In this document: positions 2,691-57,724 of the stretch, piece by piece
Position numbering within the stretch: position 1 is the first letter of the stretch
Layout: each line of letters opens with the position of its first letter
Assembly (NCBI GenBank): GCA_905147135.1
Contig: LR990054.1
Location: 13,429,001-13,493,000, forward strand
DNA: 64,000 nucleotides
From: Blastobasis lacticolella
Lineage: Eukaryota > Arthropoda > Insecta > Lepidoptera > Blastobasidae
Direction of reading: 5' to 3'
Made by a program: the position numbers and the translations under genes
The notes under the pieces: generated by a model
Database searches by the model: none
Told to the model about the DNA's origin: nothing
What the model saw: the letters and a program-made list of their open reading frames with translations, nothing else

Positions 2691-2784
2691 GTGCCGTAAA
2701 GGGGGCTTCATGTATCAGAAATCCACTGGATTAACAGTCTCGGGAATTGATTGGTAGTTGGCACCCCTTGACGGTAATAGTAAT

Positions 2785-3142
2785 AAAAATCATCTTAGCG
2801 TTAAAGTCCCGATTGTGCTATCGCGCACGAGGGCCAGGGCTCAGCCTTGACGCTGATCCAGGATTTGGCAGATCAGATAATTACAGTAGAGCGACTGCCA
2901 TCTGACCTCCGTGACCCTTCTATCAGGGAAACCTGAGCAGATTGGATCATGGTTACATATTCAGTCGACTGAATGTGCAGGTTTCATCACGATGTTTTCC
3001 CTCACCATAAGAGCATCGGTTAGCACTAAACTAATGTACATAACTTAAAAAAAAGTCATTGGTACATGGCCGTAGCGGGGTTCGTACCCGGTACCTATCG
3101 CTTACGAGTCGGTCTCCGTAACCATTATCCCTGCGACGCTCC
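2785..3142 (-). mobile_element. tRNA-derived SINE (family A), near full length
   Basis: Read on the minus strand it has a tRNA-like head (near 3142-3065) with a mutated B box, a body with TGATGAAACCTGCACATTCA and CCAAATCCTGGATCA, and a tail ACGCTAAGATGATT. It belongs to the family of the complete copy at 5745-6088. Confidence 0.75.
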
Positions 3143-5378: not shown

Positions 5379-5725
5379 ATGAGATGTATTTCTTTGATCA
5401 CTTTGGTTTGGTGTATTCTGTGTTCCATATCCGATCAATACCTCGAGCCTACGGCGAGAATTTCACCATAAAGCAGCGTACCGTCGACGGATGATGAGCT
5501 GGTTGGAGTTTGGGAGGATGAAAAATGAAAAACAAAACAGAAAAAGCTTGCAAGAATTTTTTTGGTTAACGCATTTCCTACTAATCTACGAGTGGATGCG
5601 TCGCGTCATCTTTAGGGAAGGGGTCCATTCCTATGAATGTAAATAAATTATATAAATAAACCTTTATTACAATTTTTTTTACAAAATGATAAAATTTTTC
5701 TGACTCTTAAACTAAGTCAGGAAAT

Positions 5726-6107
5726 AAGCAATTAATATAAGTAAATAATCATCTTGGCGTTAATGTCCCACTTGTGCTCTCGCACACGAGGGCCCGGGGC
5801 TTGTTTTGATAGATCAGGTAATTAAAGTGGAGCGGCTGCCATCTGACCTCCGTGACCCTGCTACCAGAGGAATCTGACCAGTTTTGATCATGGTTACACA
5901 TTGAGTCGCCTGAACGTGCAGGTTTTATCAAGATGTTTTCCCTCACCGCAAGAGTATCGATTAGTGATCAATTAATGTAAAAAACTCAAAAAAGAGTCAT
6001 TGGTATATGGCGGCAGTGGGATTCGAACCCGGTAGATACATCTCGCTCGCAAGTCGGATATCTTTACCACTACGCAACTGACGCTCCTAAGCAATGAATA
6101 CAAGTAA
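5726..6107 (-). mobile_element. Full-length tRNA-derived SINE (family A) with 19-bp target duplication
   Basis: The element spans 5745-6088, sense on the minus strand. The head carries an A box (TGCGTAGTGG, complement of 6067-6076) and a perfect B box GGTTCGAATCC (complement of 6019-6029), so it derives from a tRNA gene. Flanks 5726-5744 and 6089-6107 match at 17 of 19 positions. The intact promoter boxes make it the reference copy for the family in this window. Confidence 0.85.
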
Positions 6108-9493: not shown

Positions 9494-9891
9494 TTTAATT
9501 AATTTACATGCAAGTTATTTATTAAAATACGGATACTTTCATAAATCATATAGGTATACCTAGGTATTGGAAAGCTGGGCAAGTAATAAATGTCAATGGC
9601 GTTAAGGGCTAGCGATGTAGTCTAGACATATTCAAAACAAAATTCAATAACATGGTCATATCTTTGTGACCATTTTTGTAAATAAATAAATAATATCATG
9701 TCAATAAGATATGAAAAGTACTTGAATTAAGTAAAGGGTAAGTCCCGGATGGATAACACGCACCTTGAAATGTCACTCGAATAGCACTCTATGTAGAAAA
9801 TGAAGTATCTATATTTTACTCTACCGGCTATCATGAGGCAATAATAAACCATCATCCTTATTTAAGTAAATAAGTAAGTAGTTAATAAGTA

Positions 9892-10155
9892 ATCCTCATC
9901 TTGACGACGTCAATACTCCTCGCCAGCCACCTGTACTTCCGCTGAATACCTGAGGTCCACCTTGACCATGATCCAGAATTTGGTAGATCAGCTAATTACA
10001 GTGTACCGACTGCTTTATGACCTCCGTGATCATTAACTTCAAAGTAACCTGTACTAGATTGGATAATGGTTACACATTTAGTAGCCTGAATGTGCAGGTT
10101 TCTTCACAATGTTCCCTCAGCGTAACAGTATCGGTTAGTGTTCAACTAATGCACG
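9892..10155 (-). repeat. SINE A, head-less copy inside duplication copy 1
   Basis: It shows the body motifs TGATCCAGAATTTGGTAGATC and AATGTGCAGGTTTCTTCAC, ending GGTTAGTGTTCAACTAATGC. The tRNA head is missing. The matching copy is at 11630-11897. Confidence 0.65.
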
Positions 10156-10174
10156 TTTATTTATTTATTTAAAA

Positions 10175-10395
10175 AGTAGTGGACCCAGTGCGACTTCGTT
10201 CGCGTACACCTACTTTACAACTACCTACCCTTTTTTTCTTGCAAATAAACCTTCCTCTTGAATCACTCTATCTATTGTTGAAAACCGCATTAAAATCCGT
10301 TGAGTAGTTTAAAAGATCTAAGTGTACATAAATATTTACATATATACCTACTTAGCGACTGACGGCGGGCAGCGACTTTGTTTAAATACTATGTG
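10175..10395 (+). repeat. AAACCTTCCTC-type repeat inside duplication copy 1
   Basis: It starts GGACCCAGTGCGACTTCG and runs through AAACCTTCCTCTTGAATCAC to GACGGCGGGCAGCGACTTTG. Its duplicate is at 11930-12120. Confidence 0.65.
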
Positions 10396-11098
10396 GGGTT
10401 GCCATATGAGTCTGAATATTATAGTTCGACAACAAATGTCCTATTTTATTTTTGTACTTGATCGGGGAGTCCTAAGTCCAAATCACTTATAAAAAAATAA
10501 AAATATCGCTGTACTGCAACTTTTGCATAGTTTTTTAACAATCAATTTCATTTCTGTAGGAATGTTTATTTTCGTAAGTTATGAAAAATATTATTAAATA
10601 ATGGGCAAAACAATTAAAAATGAAGTGCGGGTGATAAATTTTAGCAATATTAATAATGTACACAAACTAAAAGTACAAGTGCAAGCCAAATAACTGAATG
10701 TTTACAAGAAGGCCTGACAAGGGCAGATTATCCCCAGATTACTGCCATATCCACATTTTATCATTTTTCAGTCAATACCGACTTATCTTGGTCCTATTAT
10801 ATCAATAATCTAGCTTCATGACGAGATCGTTATAGGTATGCGACAGACGAGGCACAAGTAGTGTTTGTGCCTAGATTAGTTCTACAATAAGCTATATGGA
10901 ATAACGCCCGAGGTGTACGAGGTAATCTTGAAGGGACGCTTATGGAAAAAGGCGAGTTTATTAAGCTGTCAAATAACTTTGTATAGGAAGGATATATTAA
11001 GAACTATAATCTTCTACAGAAATGATACGGCGGTACTGGGGTTAGAACTCAGTGCCTCTCGCTAATGAGCCAGACCGCAAGCCATTAGACTACTAATC

Positions 11099-11350: not shown

Positions 11351-11629
11351 CGATGTCGTCTAGACATATTCAAAACAAAATTCAATAACATGGTCATATC
11401 TTTATGACAATTTTTGTAAATAAATAAATAATATAATGTCGATAAGATATGAAAAGTACTTCAATTAAGTAAAGGGTAAGTCCCGGATGGATAACACGCA
11501 CCTTGAAATGTCACTCGAATAGCACTCTATGTAGAAAATTAAGTATCTATATTTTACTCTACCGGCCATCCTGAGGCAATAATAAATCGTCATCCCTATT
11601 TAAGTAAGTAAGTAAGTAGATAAGTAAGT

Positions 11630-11897
11630 CATCCTCATCTTGACGACGTCAATACTCCTCGCCAGCCACCGGCTGTACTCCCGCTAAATACCTGAGGTCC
11701 ACCTTGGCCATGATCCAGAATTTGGTAGATCAGCTAATTACAGTGTAGCGACTGCTATATGACCTCCGTGATCATTAACTTCAAAGGAACCTGTACTAGA
11801 TTGTATAATGGTTACACATTTAGTAGCCTGAATGTGCAGGTTTCTTCACAATGTTCCCTCAGCGTAACAGCATCGGTTAGTGTTCAACTAATGCACG
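11630..11897 (-). repeat. SINE A, head-less copy inside duplication copy 2
   Basis: This is the duplicate of 9892-10155. Its body motifs are retained and the tRNA head is absent. Confidence 0.65.
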
Positions 11898-11929
11898 TTT
11901 ATTTATTTATTTAAAAAGTAGTGGACCCA

Positions 11930-12120
11930 GTGCGACTTCGTTCGCGTACACCTACTTTACAACTATCTACCCTTTTTTCTTGCTTATAAACCTTCCTCTT
12001 GAATCACTCTATCTATTGTTGAAAACCGCATTAAAATCCGTTGTGTAGTTTAAAAGATCTAAGTGTACATAAATATTTACATATAACTACTTCGCGACAG
12101 ACGGCGGACAGCGACTTTGT
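11930..12120 (+). repeat. AAACCTTCCTC-type repeat inside duplication copy 2
   Basis: It is the duplicate of 10175-10395 and differs from it by a few substitutions. Confidence 0.65.
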
Positions 12121-12849
12121 TTAAATACTATGTGGGGTTGCCATATGAGTCTGAATATTATATAGTTCGACAACAGATGTCTTATTTTATTTTTGTACTT
12201 GATCGGGGAGTCCTAAGTCCAAATCACTTATAAAAAAAATAAAAATATCGCTGTACTGCAACTTTTGCAAAGTTTTTTAACAATCAATTTCATTTCTGCA
12301 GGATTGTTTATTTTCGTAAGTTATGAAAAATATTAATAAATAATGGGCTAAACAATAAAAAATGAAGTGCGGGTGATAACTTTTAGCATAATAATTTAGA
12401 CAAAATAAAAGTACAAGTGCAAGCCAAATAACTTAATGTTCACAAGTAGGCCTGACAAGGACAGATTATCCCCAGATTATTGCCCCCACATTTTATCATT
12501 TTTACTACTGTCAGTCAATACCGACTTATCGTGGTCCAATTATATCAATAATCTAGCTTCATAACGAGATCGTTATAGGTATGCGACAGGCGAGGCACAA
12601 GTAGTGTTTGCCTAGATTAGTTCTACAATAAGCTATATGGAATAACGCCCGAGGTGTACGAGGTAATCTTGAAAGGACGCTTATGGAAAAAGGCGAGTTT
12701 ATTAAGCTGTTAAATAACTTTGTTTAGGTAGGACATATTAAGAACTATTATCTTCTACAGAAATGATACGGCGGTACTGGGGTTAGAACTCAGTATCTCT
12801 CGCTAATGAACTGGACCGCAAGCCATTAGACTACTAATATTACCTATAA

Positions 12850-23999: not shown

Positions 24000-26900
24000 T
24001 AAGTACCGTTCTCATTTTTAGAAAAATACAATTTAATTTTCTATACAAAAAACACGACAAACATTTATTAAGGCGGCATTGAAATTCATCAAACATCCCA
24101 ATCGATCATCGGTATAAATCTCACTGGTCGAGTGGATGAACACTAATAGAATTAACAATTATAAGCCACCAATTTTCCACCGCAGTTCATTCATAAAGTA
24201 AACCTGCGCACACGCAACCTCTGTAACCTTAGCCGGGTCTTATAGACAGATCATTAGAACGTCATTACGTATTTAGCTTAACAATGAATGTGTACCGTTT
24301 ATAGTATCGAATTCCCGCCATCATTCTTCAGTCGGTCAACAGTTTTATAGTCTCTCACAAATTGGTTTTGGCAACTTACTGTTTTGTAATTCCTTTGCGT
24401 AATTCGGCGCAAGCTTCCACTGCCTACTTACTACATGTTTAATGTGATAGGTATGTAATATCTCTTTGATTTTAGATTTATTGACCGACTTTACGAAGAC
24501 GGACAAATTTGTTCACACAAATAATATTATCGCTGCCAAATTGTGAAAGTATGTATGACTTGAGTACCCTTTTTAAACAAGTATGCGGTTTTCCTTATGG
24601 TTACCTATATCACAAGAAAAAATGCCTACATTAGTTCGGTACAAGTGTAAATGTGAAGTTCGATAAAAAATATTTCAAGAGCGATACAAAACGAATTAAA
24701 CAACGAAACAAAATGTCTTGACCTCAAAAAACTGACAACTGAACCTCTTAAAAAAGTAAATGGCAGATTTGTCTTTCCTTCACATCGAAACGGAACATCC
24801 TATTGACATAATTTTTGGCACAGGGATAATTAATTGGTTGATGGTAAAGCAAATAGGGACCTAAATAATATCCCACTTACAGTCAAAAGCGAGGATTAAA
24901 GCTAGTTACGAATTAAAATTATGACAACTATATTGCCGTAATTTATGAACCTCGTGGACCATAAAAGTTGCCCTGAGCCATTCATAGCGTCATCACAGAC
25001 CCCGCTCGTTTCACGCTCCAGCATGGCTCCTCGATCGCTATCTAAAACGTATAAATATAAACAAATATGAACCGAAAAAGGTCTCCCTTCAAACATGAGC
25101 TGCCGCAAAACACAAAAATTCCAACCGGGAATGCCGTGTCGTCGTATAGGTCAAATAAAAGGATCCACGGGTCTCTAACAATAACATAATCGACGAGAAT
25201 GCGCCGGCGCCGGCCCGCCGCCACCATTGTCCCGCGGAAATATTAAACACGGATACCTACGAACGTGTGAAATCGGGAATGACACCGCCACCCCCGAAAA
25301 AAACAAACCGTTATGTTTGTTCAAAATTCGAATCGGTTTTGGGTGCGCGGGCGCAAGCATTGCGCTGTTTCTTTATCGGACGACGCTGCTTCCACGCTTG
25401 AAGGTCCATTGGTACTAATTGATACAACTAGTTTGTTATTCTAATAATTTGATTATTCATTTAACATCTGCCTCAAACAACGCCGTTAATAATATCCAAC
25501 TGGCGTCGGCGTAGGTTGCTCATTTTGTGTAACCAAACATCAATCGCATGCGTCCGAAATTCCAATACCTTTGCCAACAGAATTGTGAGCAAAAGAAATG
25601 AATGAACAGGCATAAAGCAGGACCACCTCACTGAAGTGGCAAATGGTGGCAAACAATAGAGCGCGCCAAGCCCCGGCAGCCTAACAAAACAAGCAGAGGA
25701 TCAGTAACGCTGTCAAACCATAGACAAATAGAATTTGGACAAAAAATAACAAGGCATTCACACGAGCACAGATTATGTATCAATTAACGCGGCCAGAGCA
25801 AACTCGGACTATGGGAAAGTGTCCTCGGAATTTATTTATTTAAAGCGCTCGGCTCGAGACGGCACGAACGACCTCGCGCTGCCGTCCTTTTATTGTATTG
25901 GTTACAACAAGGGTTAAACGACTATTTGTTTCTATATGGCACAGTTTAGTTTAACATCATGTTTTAAATGATCGCAGTTATTATCACACATTTAAAGTAC
26001 AGGGTAGGAAACCCGGAACATAGCCTTAAAAAAGTTTTGTTTTTCATGGTACTTACCGAACCAAAAATGTAGAAAATACTCTGTACTATAGATTGTATGA
26101 TTTACGTGAACTTGTTTCGCAAACATCGTTTCTTCATTAACCTGTTGGTTAAAGTTTTGTACCGCGTAACTTGGGTTTTGAGTTGCCTGATATAGTGACG
26201 TAATTGTACATGGCTCAAGGTCATATGAATGACCTATGAAACTATGTCTTTAAATACAGGTAAAGACAGAACGGGATCAAAACGACGAAAATGTCTATCG
26301 CCCAGAAAACTAAATACTATTAATTGATTTGATTTATCAGTCTACTCCGAAACATGCAAAAAAGATGCAAAATCGAGTAACCCATTATAAATAATCTCAA
26401 CAAGAAAAATAAAGATATCCTATCGACCCAATCCTTAACACCCACAAAAGATGTCCAACAAGTTGTATTTGATAATGGCAGCTCTTTATCTAAAACTACT
26501 ACTGATCGTAAAACTTTTTTATTTTATGTCTCTATTCCCCTCAGGTAAAAAAGGTGGCAAATTCTTATCGCTGATAGAAAATTATCTGTTGTGAAGTGAC
26601 AGAGTTATCTCTAAACACTTTCAAATTACAAGCAAGGCTTCTGATGTTTTTTTTTCTATTTCTGTGCAGCTTATGGTCATTTTGGGTATCTGATTGTTTT
26701 AGTTTTTATTATACGTTAACTCTTAACTTTTAAACTTAACATGGATCAACTGGGTTTAAGTGATTTGGTTTTGGGTTTAGTTGCTATATTTTTAACTAGC
26801 TTTTCCCCCCGATTTTTGTAAGTAGTTAAGTCTTTGCTTATATCCTATTTCTTGACGTTTTATCTTTACATAATGAACCTACATTTAATAATAATAACAG

Positions 26901-33650: not shown

Positions 33651-33972
33651 TTTGACTATCGGCATAATCATCATCTTGGCGTTAATGTCCCGATTGTGCT
33701 CTCGCGCACGAGGGCCCGGGGTTCGCCTTGACCATGATCCAGGATTTGGCAGGTCAGGTTATTACAGTGGAGCGACTGCCATCTGACCTTCATGACCCTG
33801 CTACCAGGGGAACCTGACCAGATTGTATCATAGTTATACATCCAGCCACCTGAATGTGCAGGTTTCATCACGATGTTTTCCCTCACCGTAAGAGCATCGG
33901 TTAGTATTCAACTAATGTACATAACTCAGAAAACAGTCATTGGTACATGGCCGGACTTTGACTATCGGCATA
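33651..33972 (-). mobile_element. 5'-truncated SINE A with perfect 16-bp target duplication
   Basis: The element (33667-33956) lacks the tRNA head and begins at GGCCATGTACCAATGAC on the minus strand. Both flanks read TTTGACTATCGGCATA (33651-33666 and 33957-33972). The perfect duplication points to a young insertion. Confidence 0.9.
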
Positions 33973-37050: not shown

Positions 37051-37221
37051 AATTAAATAAAAAGATAAAAAATATTCGTGGACAAATTCACACAGCGCCA
37101 TCAAGCCCCAAACTAAGCAAAGCTTGTACTGCCCGGCCGGGAATCGAACCCGGGGACCTCTTGCGTGGCAGACCGTTGACCATGTTGACCATTGAACCAC
37201 TCAGGTCATCAAAATTAAATA
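37051..37221 (-). mobile_element. Short SINE B copy with intact tRNA promoter boxes
   Basis: Minus-strand sense. The head has a GTGGTTCAATGG A-box region and a perfect B box GGTTCGATTCC, and ends with GCTTTGCTTAGTTTGGGGC and GGCGCTGTGTGAATTTG. The flanks share AATTAAATA (37051-37059 and 37213-37221). An internal block present in the copies at 11142 and 62090 is missing. Confidence 0.75.
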
Positions 37222-37274
37222 GGGAACTATGTTTTTTGTTACATATTTGTGCTATTTTAATAAAATATGGGTGC

Positions 37275-37540
37275 TTTTCATTTATGCCACTAGTAATGGA
37301 AAGAAATTCTAAACCTTTGGTTCGGTAGTTTTCATTTATGCCACTAGTAATGGTAAGAAATTCTAAACATTTGGTTCGGTAGTTTTCATTTATGCCACTA
37401 GTAATGGTAAGAAATTCTAAACATTTGGTTCGGTAGTTTTCATTTATGCCACTAGTAATGGTAAGAAATTCTAAACCTTTGGTTCGGTAGTTTTCATTTA
37501 TGCCACTAGTAATGGTAAGAAATTCTAAACCCTTGGTTCG
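37275..37540. repeat. Minisatellite: five tandem 54-bp units
   Basis: Units start at 37275, 37329, 37383, 37437 and 37491. Each begins TTTTCATTTATGCCACTAGT and ends near TTTGGTTCGGTAG. Units 2-4 are almost identical; units 1 and 5 carry a few changes, and unit 5 lacks the last bases. Confidence 0.95.
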
Positions 37541-37544
37541 TTGT

Positions 37545-37965
37545 TACAGTACATTATTGCAGAGGTTTGGAAAGTAAGGGAATGACCGACGCCGAGACAT
37601 ATTTAATTATTTTCTCAAATAATGATACGTAAAATAATATAAGATTCAAAATGGCGGCTACATCTTTTTGATATTGGACTTTTCTAACTAGTGTTCTTGA
37701 ATTAATAGGTTCCGAGTTACTTATTGCGCTTTTATCAATTGAATAAATGGGGGTAAATCGATTTGTTTCGTTTCGAAAGTTTACCAGCCATTGTAAAGCA
37801 CACTAAAAATTATGCATGATGCATAACCATTTGGTTATGCAAACCAAAGGTTTTATACCACTGGATAGTCTTTTTGATCACAAGTCATGACACGACATTT
37901 AAATAACTTTTTTTTTATTCATAGCAAGCTTTTATCGCGTGCTCTATTCGAATGAAAAAATGAAA
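37545..37965. other. Non-coding, AT-rich
   Basis: No feature was recognised between the minisatellite and the following SINE. Confidence 0.4.
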
Positions 37966-38222
37966 AATAATCATCTCGACGTTAATGTCCCGGTTGTGTT
38001 CTCGCGCACGAGGGCCCGGGGTTCGTCTTGCCCATGATCCAGGATTTGGCAGATCAGGTAACTACAGTGGAGCAACTGCTCCCTGACCTCCATGACCCTA
38101 ACATCAGGGGAACGTTACCAGATTGGATCATGGTTATTCAGTCACCTGAATGAGCAGGATTCATCATAATGTTTTCCCTCACCGTAAGAGCATCGGTTAG
38201 TATTCAACTATTGTACATAACT
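37966..38222 (-). mobile_element. 5'-truncated SINE A
   Basis: It runs from the tail TTAACGTCGAGATGATT to the GAGTTATGTACAATAGTTG region on the minus strand; the tRNA head is absent. It abuts the RTE-like LINE end at 38224. Confidence 0.7.
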
Positions 38223-38223
38223 C

Positions 38224-38595
38224 ATGATTATCATCATCATATCAGTCAGAAGACGCCTACTGCTGGGCAGAGATGTCCACAAAGGCCGGTCCTGTGCTTT
38301 CCGCATCCAGCTGGTACCTGCGATCCTTACCAGGTCGTCGGTCCACCTTGTAGGTATAGAGGGTAGGCCACCCACGCTGTCTTCCTGTACGTGGTCGCCA
38401 CTCGAGAACTTTACTGCCCCATCGGTCATCTGTTCTTCGAGCTATGTGCCCTGCCCACTGCCACTTCAGTCTGGCAATTGTTAGAGCTATGTCGGTGACC
38501 TTGGTTCGCGGATCTCCTCATTTCTGGTTCGATCGCGCAAAGAAACTCCGAGCATAGGTCTTTCCATTGCCCTTTGGGTAACCGTGAGCTTTCTT
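38224..38595 (-). pseudogene. RTE-like LINE reverse transcriptase, C-terminal fragment
   Basis: On the minus strand the order is SLRDRTRNEEIREPR, VTDIALTIARLKWQWAGHIA, RRTDDRWGSKVLEWRPRTGR, then after a frameshift RWTDDLVRIAGTSWMRKAQD. This is the conserved C-terminus of RTE-type elements of Lepidoptera. It ends with an ATGATG-type tail at 38224-38245. Frameshifts make it inactive. It is a longer sibling of 22340-22505. Confidence 0.8.
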
Positions 38596-40299: not shown

Positions 40300-41145
40300 T
40301 GTCAAGGATTTTTTATTTGTAGATCACACTTATTATTTCTATGGATTTCGTACAATTTTTGACAGAAAAAATTGACCTTAAATAAAAAGGGTGACATTAA
40401 AAGCAATATTTTAAATGCAATAATTTAATTTAATAAACATAGAAACTATGTTTGTCACCAGTTATAAATACTATTTGAACTATACAAATAATGATTAAGT
40501 TATTAAATACACTGGTTTTGTGGTTTACTTTACAATAATATAATTAACAGCGCTATTAAAGCTAGTCGCATTTCATTGGATTAATTATGTAACAGTTATA
40601 TAAATAGTTAACAAAGAATCAAGTTACATAATACTAGCGTTAGGAAAAAGTGCAAGAAGCTTCGCTTGCATTGCACGGTATAAACCGTAACAGGACCAAT
40701 CGTCAGTCGTCGCGATCAAGTCATAGCGATCCAGGCTCTGAGTCGTGTAAAGTACTAACTAATTTAACAAAAAAGGATCATCACCTTTAATACAAGCTCG
40801 CCGGAATGTACGGACAGTAAACGATTCAAAGCGTGTAACGTTAAAACTAGGGGTCATGAATGACTAGGTTAGCGGAAAATTTCGTTGGAGGATGATGCAG
40901 ATCAAAATAAATATTAAATTCGATGCTATTTACATTACGAGGAACTAATTCATTCTATACCGAAATGGCAATGACATGGCAAATACAATAAGTTAATCGC
41001 TATACGAACAGCCTATTAATAGCTTCGCTGGTATTGCTGCAGCGTTTCTCTGGCTGTCGTATGGGGCGCGGTGCTATTTGCAACATGGCAGTCACCGCTC
41101 CCTGTGAGTGAGACAGGGCCGTGGGTCCGGCTCAGATGCCTACGC
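40300..41145 (-). other. Probable 3' untranslated region of the cytokine-like gene
   Basis: Below the TAG at 41146 the minus strand has no AATAAA until about 40313 (TTTATT on plus). ATTAAA variants lie at 40424-40434. The interval is AT-rich and holds several ATTTA pentamers on the transcript strand, for example at 40908-40912 and 40915-40919. These occur in unstable cytokine mRNAs but are also expected in AT-rich DNA. The poly(A) site is uncertain. Confidence 0.35.
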
Positions 41146-44100
41146 CTACTGGTTCGTCGTCTCGGACATTGCCTGCATGATCTGCTTCAAGTATTTCAGG
41201 TAGTCCAGCGTGTCCCTGAACACCAGCGTGGAGACCTCCACACTGTTCCTGTGAGAGAGGTTAGGCAGTTCGGTGTTGTACAGTGGCAAGATTTCCAGAT
41301 TGCGAGCCGCCATCAGTACCTGTAACAAATAAGAGATACGGTTAGAACATTGTTGGGAAGTGCCTATTTTATTTGCTACCGGATATAAAACAATTAATAT
41401 TGAGATGGTTTCGGTAGATTATGAAGTTAATTATTTTGTTAAAAGTCGAAATAGATGGATATCTCGTCGAATCGGATGCCAGAGACGACGGCTTCCGACG
41501 CAAGGATGCTAAAGACCAGGCGATGAGTAAGTAGAAAAGAGTAGGAAAGCAGAACTGGTGGAAGCATGGATGGACCGTTCGGATGATGATGATGACTTAG
41601 TCGAACTTCAGAGAACAAGCTCGTTCCTCATTAGGTATATATTTTACAGGGGCGGCAACGCGTGGGTGATGCCCCTGGTATTGCAAACGTCCATAAGCTG
41701 CGGTGACTGCTTACCATCAGGCAGGCCGCAAGCTTATTTGCCACCATTGTGGTACAAAAAAAATCCTAATACCGTTTGCTAAGCAAGGTTGACCAGTCTT
41801 CCGCTGGGGATCTGGAAACTGGTCTAACAGTTCAGGGTGCCATGATGATATTTTTAAACATATACTTACACTAAATTCACACAGGACGAGCTTGATTTTG
41901 GTCTTGATGCTCAGCACCTTGTCCAACAGGTCCGTGGACCGGGGCCCGCTCACAGGCAGTTGCTGACTCATCATATTAATGGCCGCCAGCGTCACCTTCA
42001 GAGCCTTGAACATACTCGGCATGACATCGTTCAATTTTGTTGTCTGTAACAAAACGAAGAAGACATTTAGTTCTAAATATTCTCATATCTTCCAAGACTG
42101 TGAAGCTTAACTTCACAACCCTGGAACCTTGATTTCGAGCAAGAGACGGCTTCTATCTCAGTCGCCCAGTAGCACGATTGCGAAATGATAATGTTCTCAC
42201 GTAAGCTACCTACAGTCGGGCCGAAAACAATGAGTGCCACCGTCGAAGGCAATTCGGCGAAAACGATTGAAAAACACATGAGGATGCACGTTTTCGGCGT
42301 CAGCGCATTTGACGCCCTTCGGTACACTATTGTTTCCGACGCGGTGGATGATAATGAAGGAAGCAACTTTGTAAGCAGATCTTGCATTGGAGCAATGAAT
42401 ACGCAGATTATTGACCATTTAGGTATATCTACTTATGTCTTATGTACTATTATTATAAGTAAGGGGTATTCAACAAAACTACTGAAACTATTTCGAAAAT
42501 TCTTTCACTACTAGGTACTTTATTCCTAATTGACATGGGTACTTTAAGCCGGGATCTACTTACGAAAGAGGGAAGAAAAAAGAAATATAATCAACCTAAG
42601 GGAAGTTAATCTGGTTCATTTCATTAATATTTGTACTCACCACGACTAAATCGACGACGTCTGTGCCCGCATTTCTGGGGGACACCTCTGACTTATACCA
42701 GGCGGAGTCCACAAAGTCCTCCATCCACTCGTATCTGATCCAGTCCTGCATGACCTGGTCGTAGTTCCTTGCGTTGCCGTGTAGTTCACACGTCTGAAAC
42801 AAGCAACATCATAACTTGAATAAAGAGTGATATGGTACCTTTTTGCTTGACTGGTATCGTAGAAGGTGTCTAATGTCATAGAGGTCACCTATTAGTCCGT
42901 AACATCGAAAATGGACAGCAGAACTTTTTGTTGAGTACGTATTTTCATATTTCCATCCTCAACACGCCTGCCTAATTGCCAAGCGCGGAGATTATGCCTT
43001 CCAACAATGTGAAGGATGCTCAAGTCGAGCAGTTGACTGTTGACTATGATGATCTTACTTGTATATCAGGATACAGCGAAACGAATATAAGACAAAAAGT
43101 TTGTTACCAACATCGCTGAGTCAGAAGAAAATTTGTATAACGGAATTAGGAAAACTTCGGACGTAATTTTGACATGTATTAGGTGGCAGTGATTCATTTT
43201 TGCCAACGAATACAAAATGAAGTACAAAAAAAATCAATTATTCTAGGTCTATTATTATTCTGATGTGCGGTATTACCACAACTCAGTTTGTGCGGTGTGA
43301 GTCAACCGTTTCATTTGTTCTTCGGAGATGAAAACAGTTTTACTAGTTAAAGCGGCGGGTGATTGATTTTCACGGAACGCGAGATTGAAACGGAAGGTTT
43401 AACTGTAGTGGAAAATGACAAGTTTCCTTTGCGATTTACTATCCGCCTGTATAAAACGTGAGGGGAGCTCAGTACGATGCAGTGATTGTCTAGATCTAGT
43501 GCTTCCATGATAATCTACTCCTAGGTTTGGTGAGTGATCTTTTGTACCAAACATTCATGTAGAAAATAACAATAAGTCACAAATTCTAATTGTAAAAAGA
43601 TACTAATTGATATAGCAGTTAAAGCAATATTTACTTATTTAATAACTCAAGAATGCTCTACATTGCACTCCAATGTTTTGTTTGGAAAAAGTGATGATCG
43701 GAAGATGTTAAACTTTGTAAAAACGATTGCAAACTGCGTCGTAAAATTGCATATTATAACTCATAAACCAATATCTTTTGAGCTAGTCGTTAAGAGTTGA
43801 CAGTTAAAAATACGGGGTCAGGTAAAATTGTTCGCTACGCTGCTCGCTATCTTTCCCAGAGATCCTTCAATTAGATAAACGGTCCGCCTGTGCGCAATAG
43901 CTAACTATCAAATTAGTCTATTAATAGGTACTGTTTTCTAGAATTATACTACCCTGCATAGGAATTAAACAATTTGAGACAAATAGTGTACCTATAGACA
44001 TTGAATTTCGATACAGGATAGGCAATATCGAAACAGGAGGCCCGCTGCAGCCGTAGCTCGCAACACAATCGTCGCGATATAAAATTGGACACGAAACATG

Positions 44101-47100
44101 ACACGTACGTGACATAAGGCGAATAGCCGAAAACTGTGTTTAATTTACGACGCAGAAAGTTCAAAAACCTCTGGCACGCGCGCGCCACCGGCAGATGCAA
44201 CGCCGCGCCGCGCTCCTCCATTCCGTCCGAATCGATTGTCGCCCAACATAATAAATATTGAACTCAACAATACGTGACTAATTAAACTCGGTTTAGCTAA
44301 TTTCCAACTGCGAAGATAAAGGTATTGTTGTGGACAATGTTTCGCGCGTGCCAATTGAAAAACGAATGTCGAACCTACTGTATTAATTGGCCATTCTTGT
44401 TCACCCTAACTGTTACGCGGGTAAGTGCCGATTTTAGCTAGATAAAATTTTACGTAATTTTCGACACGATGTCTGATGGTGACGAATCCTCGACGTGTGA
44501 CATAGATAGCCATGTAACGTTAGCCAGAAGCGGAATGCGCCGTGTAGTCAATAGTCACAGGTGTTCGTCCGGCATAACACGCCACATCCGAAACACTTAA
44601 CGATATCACATTTACAATGGTCATGTAATACGACTACATTGAATTTTTGGCTCACGAAATGCGAATACGATGATATCACGGATGATAAAGCGGCGAGAGA
44701 TCGCTGTTTAGGCACCTGCCTTCCGGGTAAAAAAGAGAACAAGTAAAATATATCTTTTGTTGATCCAGTCAGAAGTCAAAACAAAGACCTTTCGAACCTA
44801 ATTAGTTGAAACAGCCAATGCCAAAACACTCTTTCATTAGGCAGCAAAATCGATCAACAAAGTGGGTGAGAAAGCCCGTGAGAAGGTCCACCTGCACTGG
44901 CCGCCCGACCGTGGGTGGCCGCCGGGTCCCGTGCGAAATCCGACGACGTAGCATCCGAATGCCTAGGCGCGGGTATCATCGGAAGCTTATCAAATAAACA
45001 GTGCCCACACGGTCGCGGCGCATAGGTACGGCACACGTGCGCGCGCCGGCAGACAGCTTGTCGCCCGCACTTGTCACGTACCTACAGGTATATCGAGTGA
45101 TGCCTCCAATCCACTTGTTCGTGTATTGAACGACACGGTCCCTTGTAAGAGTGCGAGCGACTATTTTCCCTAAACCACGTGATAAGCATTTTCTCGTTGC
45201 AACATTTTATCCGCCTTTGCGTCTTTAATGTCTAAATATTCGGGCAATTTTAAGTTACCGTTCAGATAGCAACTTGTAGGTATAGGTACGGTAAAACGAG
45301 CGCTGTGGCGGAGCCATGAAGCGGACACAAATATGTGATAATATGACACCGGTAGTCAAAAATCTCGAGACATTCACACGGTTAGCGCGAGTCACACACC
45401 ACCAGCCAGGGTTCGTTGAATTTGTTATTGCGTTCTTAGTACGGCACGATGTGACCAGTTATTATTTTTTACACATTAAGTGGCCCGCCGACGTAATGTT
45501 ATTGTCCCGAACCCGAGATTCTATCTTTGTAGGATGAAATAAAACATTTCACGGTTTAGTGTCCGCTATTTTAGATGCCGCTCGAGCGGGGAGGATGCGT
45601 GTCCGTCGGAGGCTCGATCGCGAGTCTACGGGACAAAACTTCTGCGAAACAATGGAGGATGTCACCGTCCTTGGGAGATCTCGACAATGGCGGTTCGTTG
45701 GCTCCGGTGCGGTCTAAATCGTAATAAATATGATACATTAGTGACGAATGACCGACATTAAGGGTAGACGCAGTGAAAAAACCAAGGCTGGTAGATGCGG
45801 CGTGCAATATTAATGCGGAATCAGTATTCGAGGCGCACGCGCACCGTCCTGTAGTTCGTTCCGGCTGGTGTGCGTCGATAATGTTTTACGACGGGGAGAC
45901 ACCGGCGGTGGACAGGACGTCGTTACGGCCGCCGCCTCGCCCGACGTACACACGCACCCGCCCCGCACACAGACACACAATCGCACTCAACAAATCAATC
46001 ACTACACAACAGCTCAATATACACTGAGCGCTCGTCCTCACTCCCCCATTCGTGTCACAAACAGAAACGGCAATGTAAACCTCCCGCCTTACGATACGAC
46101 ATCGATTTATTTACAACACGACGATACAATGGTGGAGAGGATGTCGACGCGTACTGGGCCCGATCCGCCTTACTTCCGATTCGGAAACATTCCTAGGATT
46201 GGAATGAATGAATAGACCGAGACGGTCATCATTAATTGAATATGTTAAGCAATTGTTTCTGACAATATTCGTGAGTTATATCCAAATTGGCTTCGAAATG
46301 ATTTTACGACAACGTTTCTTGTCACTAGCGTCACTATTGGCCGAATATGATTAATGTTATCTAATTTAGTCGTCTATCACCATTTCAAAACGAATAAGTG
46401 ACCACAAATCTCAACATATACATTCACAGTGCACTGGCATGGTGGCATCGCATCGCATTGCTTACCATTCATTTTCAAAGCAGTCGCAGTACGAAATTAC
46501 AATTAAAAGGGAGGAAACGGCGGCGGCGGCGGCGCCTGCACGATGCGATCTGCGATACTCGCGCAGCTGACAGACGGCGCTAAATAACCCGAACGGAATC
46601 CGTAATAAAAATGACTAACCGCATCACTGTGTTCGCAATGTAAATGTACTATGTAGAGTGAAAGCAAAGCCTAAACATTCATCTCCGCGTCAGAAATATC
46701 AAACGCCCGAATCTCGAGCAAAACAATATAGTCAACTTTTAAATAAAACGCTTCTTAGTCAGTTCAAGAGGCTCATATTAGCTTAATAACTCACAGACGA
46801 CAATTTCTTGAACCGATAATGTTCCAGCACAGTTTGACCCGAGATCTTTGGCTTGAGGTCGCCACATGCCTCCTAACACAAACTAACTTGAGGTACAAAG
46901 TCAGTTCCGACTCCTAACATTTCGGTCGAAGTGAGCCTTAAGGCTGTCTGCACGCAGCTTGCCGCGTATTGGTATTGGCGAGCCGCGGTCTCCGTCCGTT
47001 CATTTGGTGCGACACGCCGCGAATACAGATTGCGAACGGCGAATGGGCTTCGCGATCGTCCCGGCGATTCGATGATACATTGCGTTACGACACTACAGAC

Positions 47101-48208
47101 TCAGCGAGAGGTTGGTAACACTTCCCTGGGATACTAGAGTACCAACTTAATATAAATTAAAAAAGGAATACTTACAAATTCATTCTTGAACGACTCGATG
47201 TACGTTATCGTGTTGGTAATCGCCCATTTAATCTTCGACGGCATTTTACTCGTATATTCTACTTTTACATCCTCCTGTAAACAAACATTCGAGTTATTTA
47301 CCTGGAGACAGAACTAAATCTATTAAGAGACCAGATTACTCGAAAAAATTAAGGACAATCGTAACTTGAGCTCTACTTACAACAGTCTCTCCAATGTCGC
47401 AGGGGTTCCCCCACAGCTGGTCCTCCTGTTCCTCAGTGGCTACCCTGTCCATGGCTCGGCTCCTGTACGGCGCCGCCGAGGACTGTGGGGACAAGGCGCT
47501 GATGATCAGCAGTAGGCTCACGGCCGCCCAAACGTTGATGTATTCTGAGGGAAAAGAGAAACATTGCTTGATGAGTATTTGAGGGGATTCAGTGGAGGAA
47601 TTGTTGACCTTTACGGCATAGATGGGAACGACCCGAAAATTATTAAGAAACTCTAGATTATAACCAACCTCCCCAAAGTTGGCGAAGGGTTGTACATCAT
47701 GCTTAATATTATGTTTTTTATCGGTATATCCACAGGATGAGGTATGGTGTAATATTTTGCTACAATTTCATTGTTGATTTAATCAGGTGTCGGCTCAGAG
47801 TTATTTTGGTACATAAGCAGGGAGTAAAGGGATGTCTTTTTTGTCGATAATTTGGTAAACGGACGTCTCCTTGCATCTCGACGATCGTATTCGAGAGAGT
47901 CGCAAGTAGTTGGTAATGCGGCACGCGCGATGCTATCGATTATGGTAATCGGGGGACATCCGATGAATAAATACACCGCGCCCGAGGTGGACAGCCTTTG
48001 CTAATTGTCCACTGAACCTGAGACGCGATAATTTAACGGTGGCGACCGGACATTCTTCCGACATATCGATATCTATGAGCTCGCTTTTACATCACTACGT
48101 AATTAACGTCTTAGTTCATTATCAAAATAGAGACTCTTTCCCTCGATTTCTCTAGTGCGCAAGATAATTCGGATAATATTACCAAAGTATTTAATTACCT
48201 GAAGTCAT
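41146..48208 (-). CDS. Secreted four-helix cytokine-like protein, six coding exons (257 aa)
   Basis: Joining exons 48199-48208, 47381-47544, 47176-47274, 42641-42793, 41870-42043 and 41146-41319 gives 774 nt, a 257-residue protein plus TAG. All five introns are GT-AG; donors are GTAATT, GTAAGT, GTAAGT, GTGAGT and GTAAGT, and every acceptor is CAG. Residues 1-27 form a signal peptide (hydrophobic core VWAAVSLLLIISAL, likely cleavage near SSA/AP). An acidic linker follows (VATEEQEDQLW), then one predicted amphipathic helix in each of exons 3-6: around IKWAITNTITYIESF, MQDWIRYEWMEDFV, MFKALKVTLAAINMM plus LLDKVLSIKTKIKLVL, and VFRDTLDYLKYLKQIMQAM. Cysteines are at 52, 93 and 197; one N-glycosylation site (NLS) is at 220. 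The phases 1-0-0-0-0 and tiny exon 1 match class-I helical cytokine genes. I infer an extracellular signalling protein, possibly an Unpaired-like ligand. The exon model is firm; the function is an inference from architecture. Confidence 0.85.
41645..41762 (-). repeat. Inverted CACCTGATGG-type repeat in intron 5
   Basis: AGGGGCGGCAACGCGTGGG, GCGGTGACTGCTTACCATCA, GGCCGCAAGC and an A-run are the reverse complement of a diverged member of the family at 35450. It lies in intron 5 of the cytokine-like gene. Confidence 0.5.
42868..43052 (+). repeat. Degenerate GAT-tailed retroposon in intron 3
   Basis: An old copy: GAAAATGGACAGCAGAACTTT, CAACACGCCTGCC, CCAAGCGCGGAGATTATG and TTGACTATGATGATC follow the family order with many changes. 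Confidence 0.55.
44150..46600. promoter_or_regulatory. CpG-rich, repeat-poor block inside intron 3
   Basis: Long CpG-dense stretches (for example 44165-44240, 44880-45065, 45830-45970, 46510-46570) contrast with AT-rich flanks, and no interspersed repeat is recognisable. Open frames here are short and lack coding character. It may be an intronic enhancer or an internal promoter; this is inferred from composition only. Confidence 0.3.
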
Positions 48209-48403: not shown

Positions 48404-48450
48404 ACTGAAATATACAATGAACTCCATGGCGGTAACCACACAGTTTTATA
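48404..48450 (-). promoter_or_regulatory. Core promoter of the cytokine-like gene (TATA box and initiator)
   Basis: On the minus strand TATAAAA occupies 48450-48444. An initiator-like TTCATTG lies about 32 bases downstream, near 48418, and a TCAGT arthropod-type initiator lies at 48408-48404, 42-46 bases downstream. Either would give a 5' leader of roughly 200 bases before the ATG at 48208. A TATA box suits an inducible gene, but the start site is not proven. Confidence 0.5.
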
Positions 48451-56680: not shown

Positions 56681-56954
56681 TACTTCTGGCGGCTCTTGTT
56701 CTGTAGGTTCGACATATATCCACTATCGTGTCACTATCACAGTCACTGTTTTGGCTATTTGTTCTTGTCCTGGGACATTGGTCACATGACGTGGGTTCTG
56801 GTAGGGGCTCGCCGCAGGTGCAGCTGAGCTCTTGTCTGCTGCTTCTGCATCGGTGGTGGTCCTCGGCCATGTACAGCTGGGTCAGTCTTATGGGCATGGT
56901 GGTAGCTTCTCCAAGGCGAAGGTTCGCGCACGACGGCATGGTACTACAATCCAT
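56681..56954 (-). CDS. First coding exon of an unidentified Cys-rich protein (91 codons, partial)
   Basis: An open frame starts at the ATG ending at 56954. The context is favourable (A at -3, G at +4) and an in-frame TGA lies six codons upstream, so this is the probable start. The frame runs to a good donor (AGAAGTA then GTAAGC) at 56681/56680, leaving phase 1, and closes shortly after inside the intron. The product is polar and Cys-rich, with a CxC...CxxC spacing in CTCGEPLPEPTSCDQC, an acidic stretch (NSDCDSDTIVD) and Arg-rich ends. A CpG-rich promoter-like region lies directly upstream. I do not recognise the family. Its downstream exons should lie below 56680, possibly beyond the window or across a large intron that also spans the cytokine-like gene. 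Confidence 0.5.
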
Positions 56955-56989
56955 CGTATACGATCTGTCTCATGCCAATGCCAAAATTG

Positions 56990-57240
56990 GAGCGCGGTGT
57001 CGCACGCGTCGCGTCGGAAGATCGACTAAATCACGCCGTGCGAGGTGCGAAGATAAAAGCCCGGTGTAAGCGGGCCACGTGCGAGGGGCGCGTGGGGGGC
57101 GAAGGCGCGGGGCTCTCCAGACGGCCGCGGACCAATGGCGGCGCGGAGCCCTGGGGGCGGGCCCGGCCTCCCACGGCGCTATGTACCGGGCCCCGCTTGC
57201 ATCGGACCCTAGGGGTTGCATGCGCTACGTCACGATGCCA
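56990..57240 (-). promoter_or_regulatory. CpG-rich promoter of the gene starting at 56954
   Basis: This segment is far richer in G+C and CpG than its surroundings. It carries a CCAAT box (57132-57136), a GC box (57153-57161) and a CACGTG E-box (57076-57081), and ends just upstream of the Cys-rich first exon. No TATA box at a suitable distance is obvious. It could also drive transcription toward the plus strand. Confidence 0.5.
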
Positions 57241-57724
57241 TTGCCTTTCACATACACGTATTCATTCATTATTTTATTACGTTACAGGAAGTAGGGCTTC
57301 GGATTCTACATAGTTAGATAAGGAGCAATTACGATAACGGTATTCTGTTGGCATTTTCCTGCTTTCCACCGTTTATGTAGCGTCTACCCAGTGTTTCCCA
57401 TAATGATTAAGGTTACTTGTAAAAAAAAGAAAAATTCGCCGAACCGCCGTGATGAGTAACGCAACACGTAGCCACGTGTGTAATCAATGGAGTATCTATC
57501 TGCTAGTTCGGTCACGGCTTTGATGTAATCAACCGTGACTGTTGTAATCATTATTGTGATTCAAATTTACTCATACAGGTGAAAATGATCTTTCACAATG
57601 TTATGCATTATTTTGGGGGTAGACTGTAAAGCTTTACGAAAGAGCGCCTCAACATACGGCGCTAGGTCGGTAGTTCATCTAATCGCGTTTTCCACTCCAA
57701 TCATGTTTTCCTCATGTTCGTAAT

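Follow-up and report, generated by a model that had tools for sequence, protein, structure and literature searches.

A six-exon gene in Blastobasis lacticolella for a predicted secreted helical protein, possibly a class-I-type cytokine

A window of 64,000 nucleotides (nt) from Blastobasis lacticolella (assembly GCA_905147135.1, contig LR990054.1, forward-strand positions 13,429,001-13,493,000) was analysed, and a candidate gene running from 48208 to 41146 on its minus strand is described here; all coordinates are positions within this window. Joining six minus-strand exons gave one unbroken reading frame of 257 residues that ends in the stop codon TAG. The split gene and its frame, known here from DNA alone, are almost certainly real. 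The exons are as follows.

48199-48208, minus strand: exon 1, 10 nt (ATG ACT TCA G), donor GTAATT, followed by intron 1 in phase 1
47381-47544, minus strand: exon 2, 164 nt, remainder of the predicted signal peptide and the linker with Cys52, donor GTAAGT
47176-47274, minus strand: exon 3, 99 nt, residues 59-91, predicted helix A
42641-42793, minus strand: exon 4, 153 nt, residues 92-142, predicted A-B connection with short helices (model confidence low here), Cys93
41870-42043, minus strand: exon 5, 174 nt, residues 143-200, predicted helix B and most of helix C, Cys197
41146-41319, minus strand: exon 6, 174 nt including TAG, residues 201-257, predicted end of helix C, C-D loop and helix D

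All five introns have GT-AG borders. Intron 1 is 654 nt long and lies in phase 1, and introns 2, 3, 4 and 5 (106, 4382, 597 and 550 nt) are each in phase 0, so that the phases of the gene read 1-0-0-0-0. The donor is GTAAGT or GTGAGT in four of the five introns, and the acceptors of introns 1-5 are pyrimidine-rich, ending in TCAG, ACAG, TCAG, ACAG and ACAG, respectively. The first exon was sought among phase-1 ATG exons that are shorter than 200 nt and have their donor, scoring 6 bits or more, between 47605 and 53000. Just two candidates were found, and exon 1 is the better and the nearer (donor 9.0 against 6.9 bits).

A total of 1365 candidate internal exons from both strands of the window were scored with generic splice matrices and codon-position frequencies. 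Exons 2, 4, 5 and 6 proved to be four of the five top non-overlapping candidates on the two strands. Among all candidates exon 2 ranks 1st, exon 4 3rd, exon 5 5th and exon 3 160th, and exon 6, when ended at an internal donor (41150-41319), is the 4th of the non-overlapping candidates. When the minus strand was shuffled 300 times with a third-order Markov model, no shuffle had an exon scoring as high as exons 2, 4 and 6 (43.5, 40.7 and 39.6); the top exon per shuffle averaged 25.2, with a maximum of 38.6. Third-position G+C is 0.73 in the coding frame, the introns standing at 0.34-0.44, and exons 2, 4, 5 and 6 have a G+C of 0.51-0.61. The acceptor of exon 3 is within the four best on its strand. 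The frame proposed in the initial annotation, with six minus-strand exons joined without a break into 257 residues, was reproduced and lies beyond chance by the single-exon scores.

Some results weigh against the reality of the gene. Exon 5 (36.4) scores below the shuffle maximum, exon 3 (19.1) is weak alone and has an intron-like G+C of 0.37, and a plus-strand candidate at 56916-57290 scores 41.5, second overall. The chain score was discarded, both real strands exceeding all shuffles (minus 227.6, plus 190.5, shuffle maximum 119.3). An earlier exon-chain statistic was likewise discarded because its intron penalty was too low, which led to meaningless chains of 124 and 133 exons.

The translated protein begins with a hydrophobic stretch, after which come small residues (SSA-A); by inspection and hydropathy this start resembles a signal peptide. 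Mean hydrophobicity is 0.50-0.64 for the 18-residue windows starting at residues 1-10, the highest among the windows listed. Small residues are the rule at signal-peptide cleavage sites, and a cleaved N-terminal signal peptide is predicted. From residue 27 onward the net charge is -7 (K, R, D and E counted), cysteines occur at residues 52, 93 and 197, and a single N-glycosylation sequon is found at residue 220. The helix D region (residues 226-253) is the most clearly amphipathic, its helical moment being reached by 16 of 2000 shuffles. The moment of the helix A region was reached by 56 of 2000, yet with 180 degrees as the best angle; in the other three segments the moment is unremarkable (reached by 1055, 447 and 849 of 2000).

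Two AlphaFold2 runs used two different lengths of one protein and are therefore not independent; both models are of low confidence. The better model, with a predicted local distance difference test score (pLDDT) of 50.4 and a predicted template modelling score of 0.48, contains four helices. They are listed below with the block pLDDT of that model.

47194-47238, minus strand: predicted helix A, residues 71-85 (71-89 in the other model), pLDDT 61-65
41960-42040, minus strand: predicted helix B, residues 144-170 (135-170 in the other model), pLDDT 42 at the start, then 67-74
41870-41944 and into exon 6, minus strand: predicted helix C, residues 176-207 in both models, the exon-5 part being 176-200, pLDDT 76, 67 and 52
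41155-41232, minus strand: predicted helix D, residues 230-255, pLDDT 48, 73 and 51

Both models agree on the start of helix A (71), the end of helix B (170), the whole of helix C (176-207) and the end of helix D (255-256). The A-B, B-C and C-D connections span 58, 5 and 22 residues in the better model, with low confidence in the loops above all, and 45, 5 and 15 residues in the other, also at low confidence. In both models, then, four main helices are predicted, the A-B and C-D connections being long and the B-C connection short. Long loops would be expected because an up-up-down-down bundle needs them, and cytokines of both classes are described as such bundles in the passages drawn on here (PMC7378365). 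The exon plan tracks the predicted structure: exon 3 corresponds to helix A, exon 4 to the A-B connection, exon 5 to helix B and most of helix C, and exon 6 to the end of helix C, the C-D connection and helix D. Of the features given in the initial annotation, the signal peptide is predicted here too (a hydrophobic stretch with a small-residue cleavage region), the three cysteines were found, and its four helix-bearing exons are consistent with both models. Its acidic linker holds for about residues 40-60 but not for the start of the linker, which is basic (RSRAMDR).

The reading we favour, with a probability of about 0.4, is that the gene encodes a secreted four-helix cytokine of class-I type that evolves fast and is most plausibly a Domeless ligand of the Unpaired type; membership of the Unpaired family is unproven. 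The four helices would pack up-up-down-down, and the protein, once secreted, would bring Domeless receptor chains together. This joining would activate the Hopscotch kinase, and STAT would then switch on immune, stress or growth genes in the receiving cells. Domeless is the obvious receptor because it is gp130-like and the receptor for Drosophila Upd3, according to a passage of one paper (PMC7378365), and because it is present in Lepidoptera, as excerpts on three moths state (PMC4490664, PMC4421797, PMC3895045). Receptor, kinase and STAT are all placed in moths by parts of two of these papers (PMC4490664, PMC4421797).

Relatives were sought in protein collections not known to include insect proteomes. 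Two protein searches yielded 328 candidates, none with an expectation value (E) of 1 or less, and 40 candidates, none at E <= 10; a search with the exon-5 frame yielded none. A six-pattern scan found three stretches in viral contigs and 20 in bacterial and archaeal genomes, and none was confirmed. The PDB sequence set gave no significant match (a poly(A) ribonuclease came closest, at E 0.26 and 0.49), and no Unpaired profile matched at E <= 10 in Pfam, in a copy that may not include the Unpaired model. No tandem paralogue was found within the window, where the best tblastn match outside the exons had E 1.8. As far as Pfam and the PDB sequence set go, the earlier statement that no known protein family is recognisable by sequence stands. 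Because of the scope of the collections, the misses do not prove an orphan gene, and public annotation may already contain a named orthologue from Lepidoptera. Kinship could not be settled by sequence search alone, since human IL-6 (interleukin-6) and the Drosophila IL-6-like ligand are said, in part of one paper, to have a similarity under the BLASTp threshold (PMC8226699). A lack of sequence relatives is expected for an Unpaired-type ligand because the Drosophila upd ligands are highly divergent, which a passage of another paper gives as a possible reason why orthologues have not been identified in other insects (PMC7071726).

Other results weigh against a cytokine. Foldseek, run on both low-confidence AlphaFold2 models, returned nothing significant, though a family missing from its match lists may still share the fold. 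A structural second look aligned the better model, over its length, most closely with other helical bundles; several of these we take to be of the simple up-down-up-down kind. The first model, too, came closest to helical bundles that are not cytokines. Since phase 0 is more frequent than the other intron phases, the phase plan is modest support. With no significant relative or fold match, the cytokine-like features are not proof. The class-I helical cytokine named in the initial annotation agrees with the signal-peptide-like start, the predicted number of helices, the predicted lengths of the loops and the phase-0 introns, but the searches gave no significant sequence or profile match to Unpaired or another family, and the low-confidence models align with other bundles.

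The strongest rival, almost as probable as the favoured reading, is that the protein is secreted and all-helical without being a cytokine; it would then be, say, a haemolymph carrier restricted to one lineage or a structural helical bundle. The alignments with non-cytokine bundles speak for such a protein, as does the fact that helix content by itself is common and that no receptor-binding feature was identified in the candidate protein. Yet long A-B and C-D connections with a B-C connection of five residues would be unusual for a simple up-down bundle, and introns 2-5 are all in phase 0. Apolipophorin III structures exist, yet the PDB set gave no significant sequence match, and the three cysteines are unlike the six of odorant-binding proteins. 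A helical cytokine for a receptor that is not Domeless, for instance CRLF3, an orphan receptor of class I, is unlikely: locust haemolymph contains an unidentified CRLF3 ligand that is thought to be conserved among insects, as a passage reports (PMC8063046), but Drosophila is stated in another to be without CRLF3 (PMC12409108), and Domeless is present in Lepidoptera as cited above. It is improbable that the exon chain is partly wrong (exon 1 or 3 being the likeliest misassigned) or that the locus is a decaying gene, as the rank of exon 3 (160/1365), its intron-like composition and the middling donors of exons 2, 3 and 5 might suggest, because 257 codons run without a frame break at the third-position G+C given above, and exon 3 is in phase 0 on both sides and provides predicted helix A.

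If the gene does encode the class-I-type cytokine favoured here, the missing JAK/STAT ligand of moths becomes directly testable as a concrete gene, and a common exon plan would bear on the question of a single origin for insect and vertebrate cytokines. We propose only tentatively the wider claim that it is the extracellular JAK/STAT ligand of the whole insect order, or represents a new insect class-I cytokine family, with an IL-6-like exon plan though an unrecognisable sequence. In the part of a butterfly oogenesis paper drawn on here, outstretched/upd is marked 'N', which is taken as not found, and hopscotch is also marked 'N' (PMC3654919). A 2025 silkworm review proposes that BmVago-like is a cytokine of the JAK/STAT pathway; in the legend of a pathway figure it names Upd3, with no silkworm upd gene in the passages concerned (PMC12653786). 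No title announcing a lepidopteran Unpaired gene was among the literature matches listed, subscription journals being mostly outside the coverage.

Two candidate signals lie outside the coding frame.

48445-48450, minus strand: candidate TATA box (TATAAA), 242 bases 5' of the start codon
40312-40317, minus strand: AATAAA, the only one from the stop codon to 40001

The candidate TATA box is weak because the motif is common upstream (nine TATAAA on both strands of the upstream 3 kilobases (kb), 8.4 expected). An ATTAAA at 40791 lies closer to the stop codon than the AATAAA. AP-1-like sites in the upstream 3 kb and intron 3 number four against about one expected from the window density (palindromes counted once), which is weak, and intron 1 holds three relaxed kappa-B matches, two of them overlapping, against 0.3 expected; the motif-scan region 'introns 4-5' also takes in exon 5. 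Both kinds of match, above density but few, were set aside as support. ATTTA pentamers are enriched in the 796 bases past the stop codon (8.8 per kb, the window having 3.5), but for the A+T-flanked nonamer the figures are 1.3 and 1.0, and an mRNA-instability element is not claimed. Intron 5 contains a 20-base motif (41701-41720) with a second copy at 1134-1153 carrying three mismatches; we take it to belong to an interspersed repeat that is widespread in Lepidoptera, and it had no match in viral or bacterial collections.

A scan of the window found no tRNA and no Rfam family at gathering score. The Pfam scan covered 29 of the 568 frames of at least 45 codons (three with exons of the candidate gene and 26 others); none of the 29 reached a family cut-off and no other gene was recognised there. 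The best Pfam match, a short minus-strand frame at 25995-26249 with a sub-threshold hit to the bacterial family HtrL_YibB (E 0.0021, 18.2 bits against a cut-off of 24.1), is probably due to chance. The plus-strand frame holding 56916-57290 has an arginine-rich translation and no Pfam match. Dispersed repeats are abundant in the window. A repeat of about 290 bases occurs at 2783-3072, 5724-6013, 33664-33953 and 37964-38253 with 60-88% identity to the reference copy, and a 75-base family that overlaps it has nine copies. A duplication of about 1.5 kb (9613-11097 and 11351-12838, spacing about 1.74 kb) has matching pieces that are 87-97% identical. A 54-base tandem repeat, a unit length that is a multiple of three, spans 37275-37540 (4.9 copies, 98% match) within an open minus-strand repeat frame at 37088-37543.

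Comparison with known cytokine genes revealed likenesses as well as differences. As in IL-6-type genes, intron 1 is in phase 1 and the rest are in phase 0, and the low-confidence models predict for the protein the arrangement of IL-6-type vertebrate long-chain class-I cytokines, in which four main helices are joined by a long A-B, a short B-C and a long C-D connection. Unlike IL-6, the intron phases of which are 1-0-0-0, the candidate gene has one extra intron; the PDB set gives no significant sequence match to these cytokines, and the up-up-down-down topology of the candidate is putative. Interferons are class-II helical cytokines, and teleost type I interferon genes differ from the candidate in that it has an additional phase-1 first intron. 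The candidate resembles them in its four phase-0 introns, as described in a passage on the teleost genes (PMC4929537). Drosophila Unpaired differs in that no Unpaired profile matched the candidate protein in the Pfam copy searched. Like Upd1, Upd2 and Upd3, the Domeless ligands of Drosophila that were reportedly proposed as four-helix ligands (to judge by the title of work by Oldefest from 2013), the candidate belongs to an insect, is predicted to be secreted and is proposed as a four-helix ligand.
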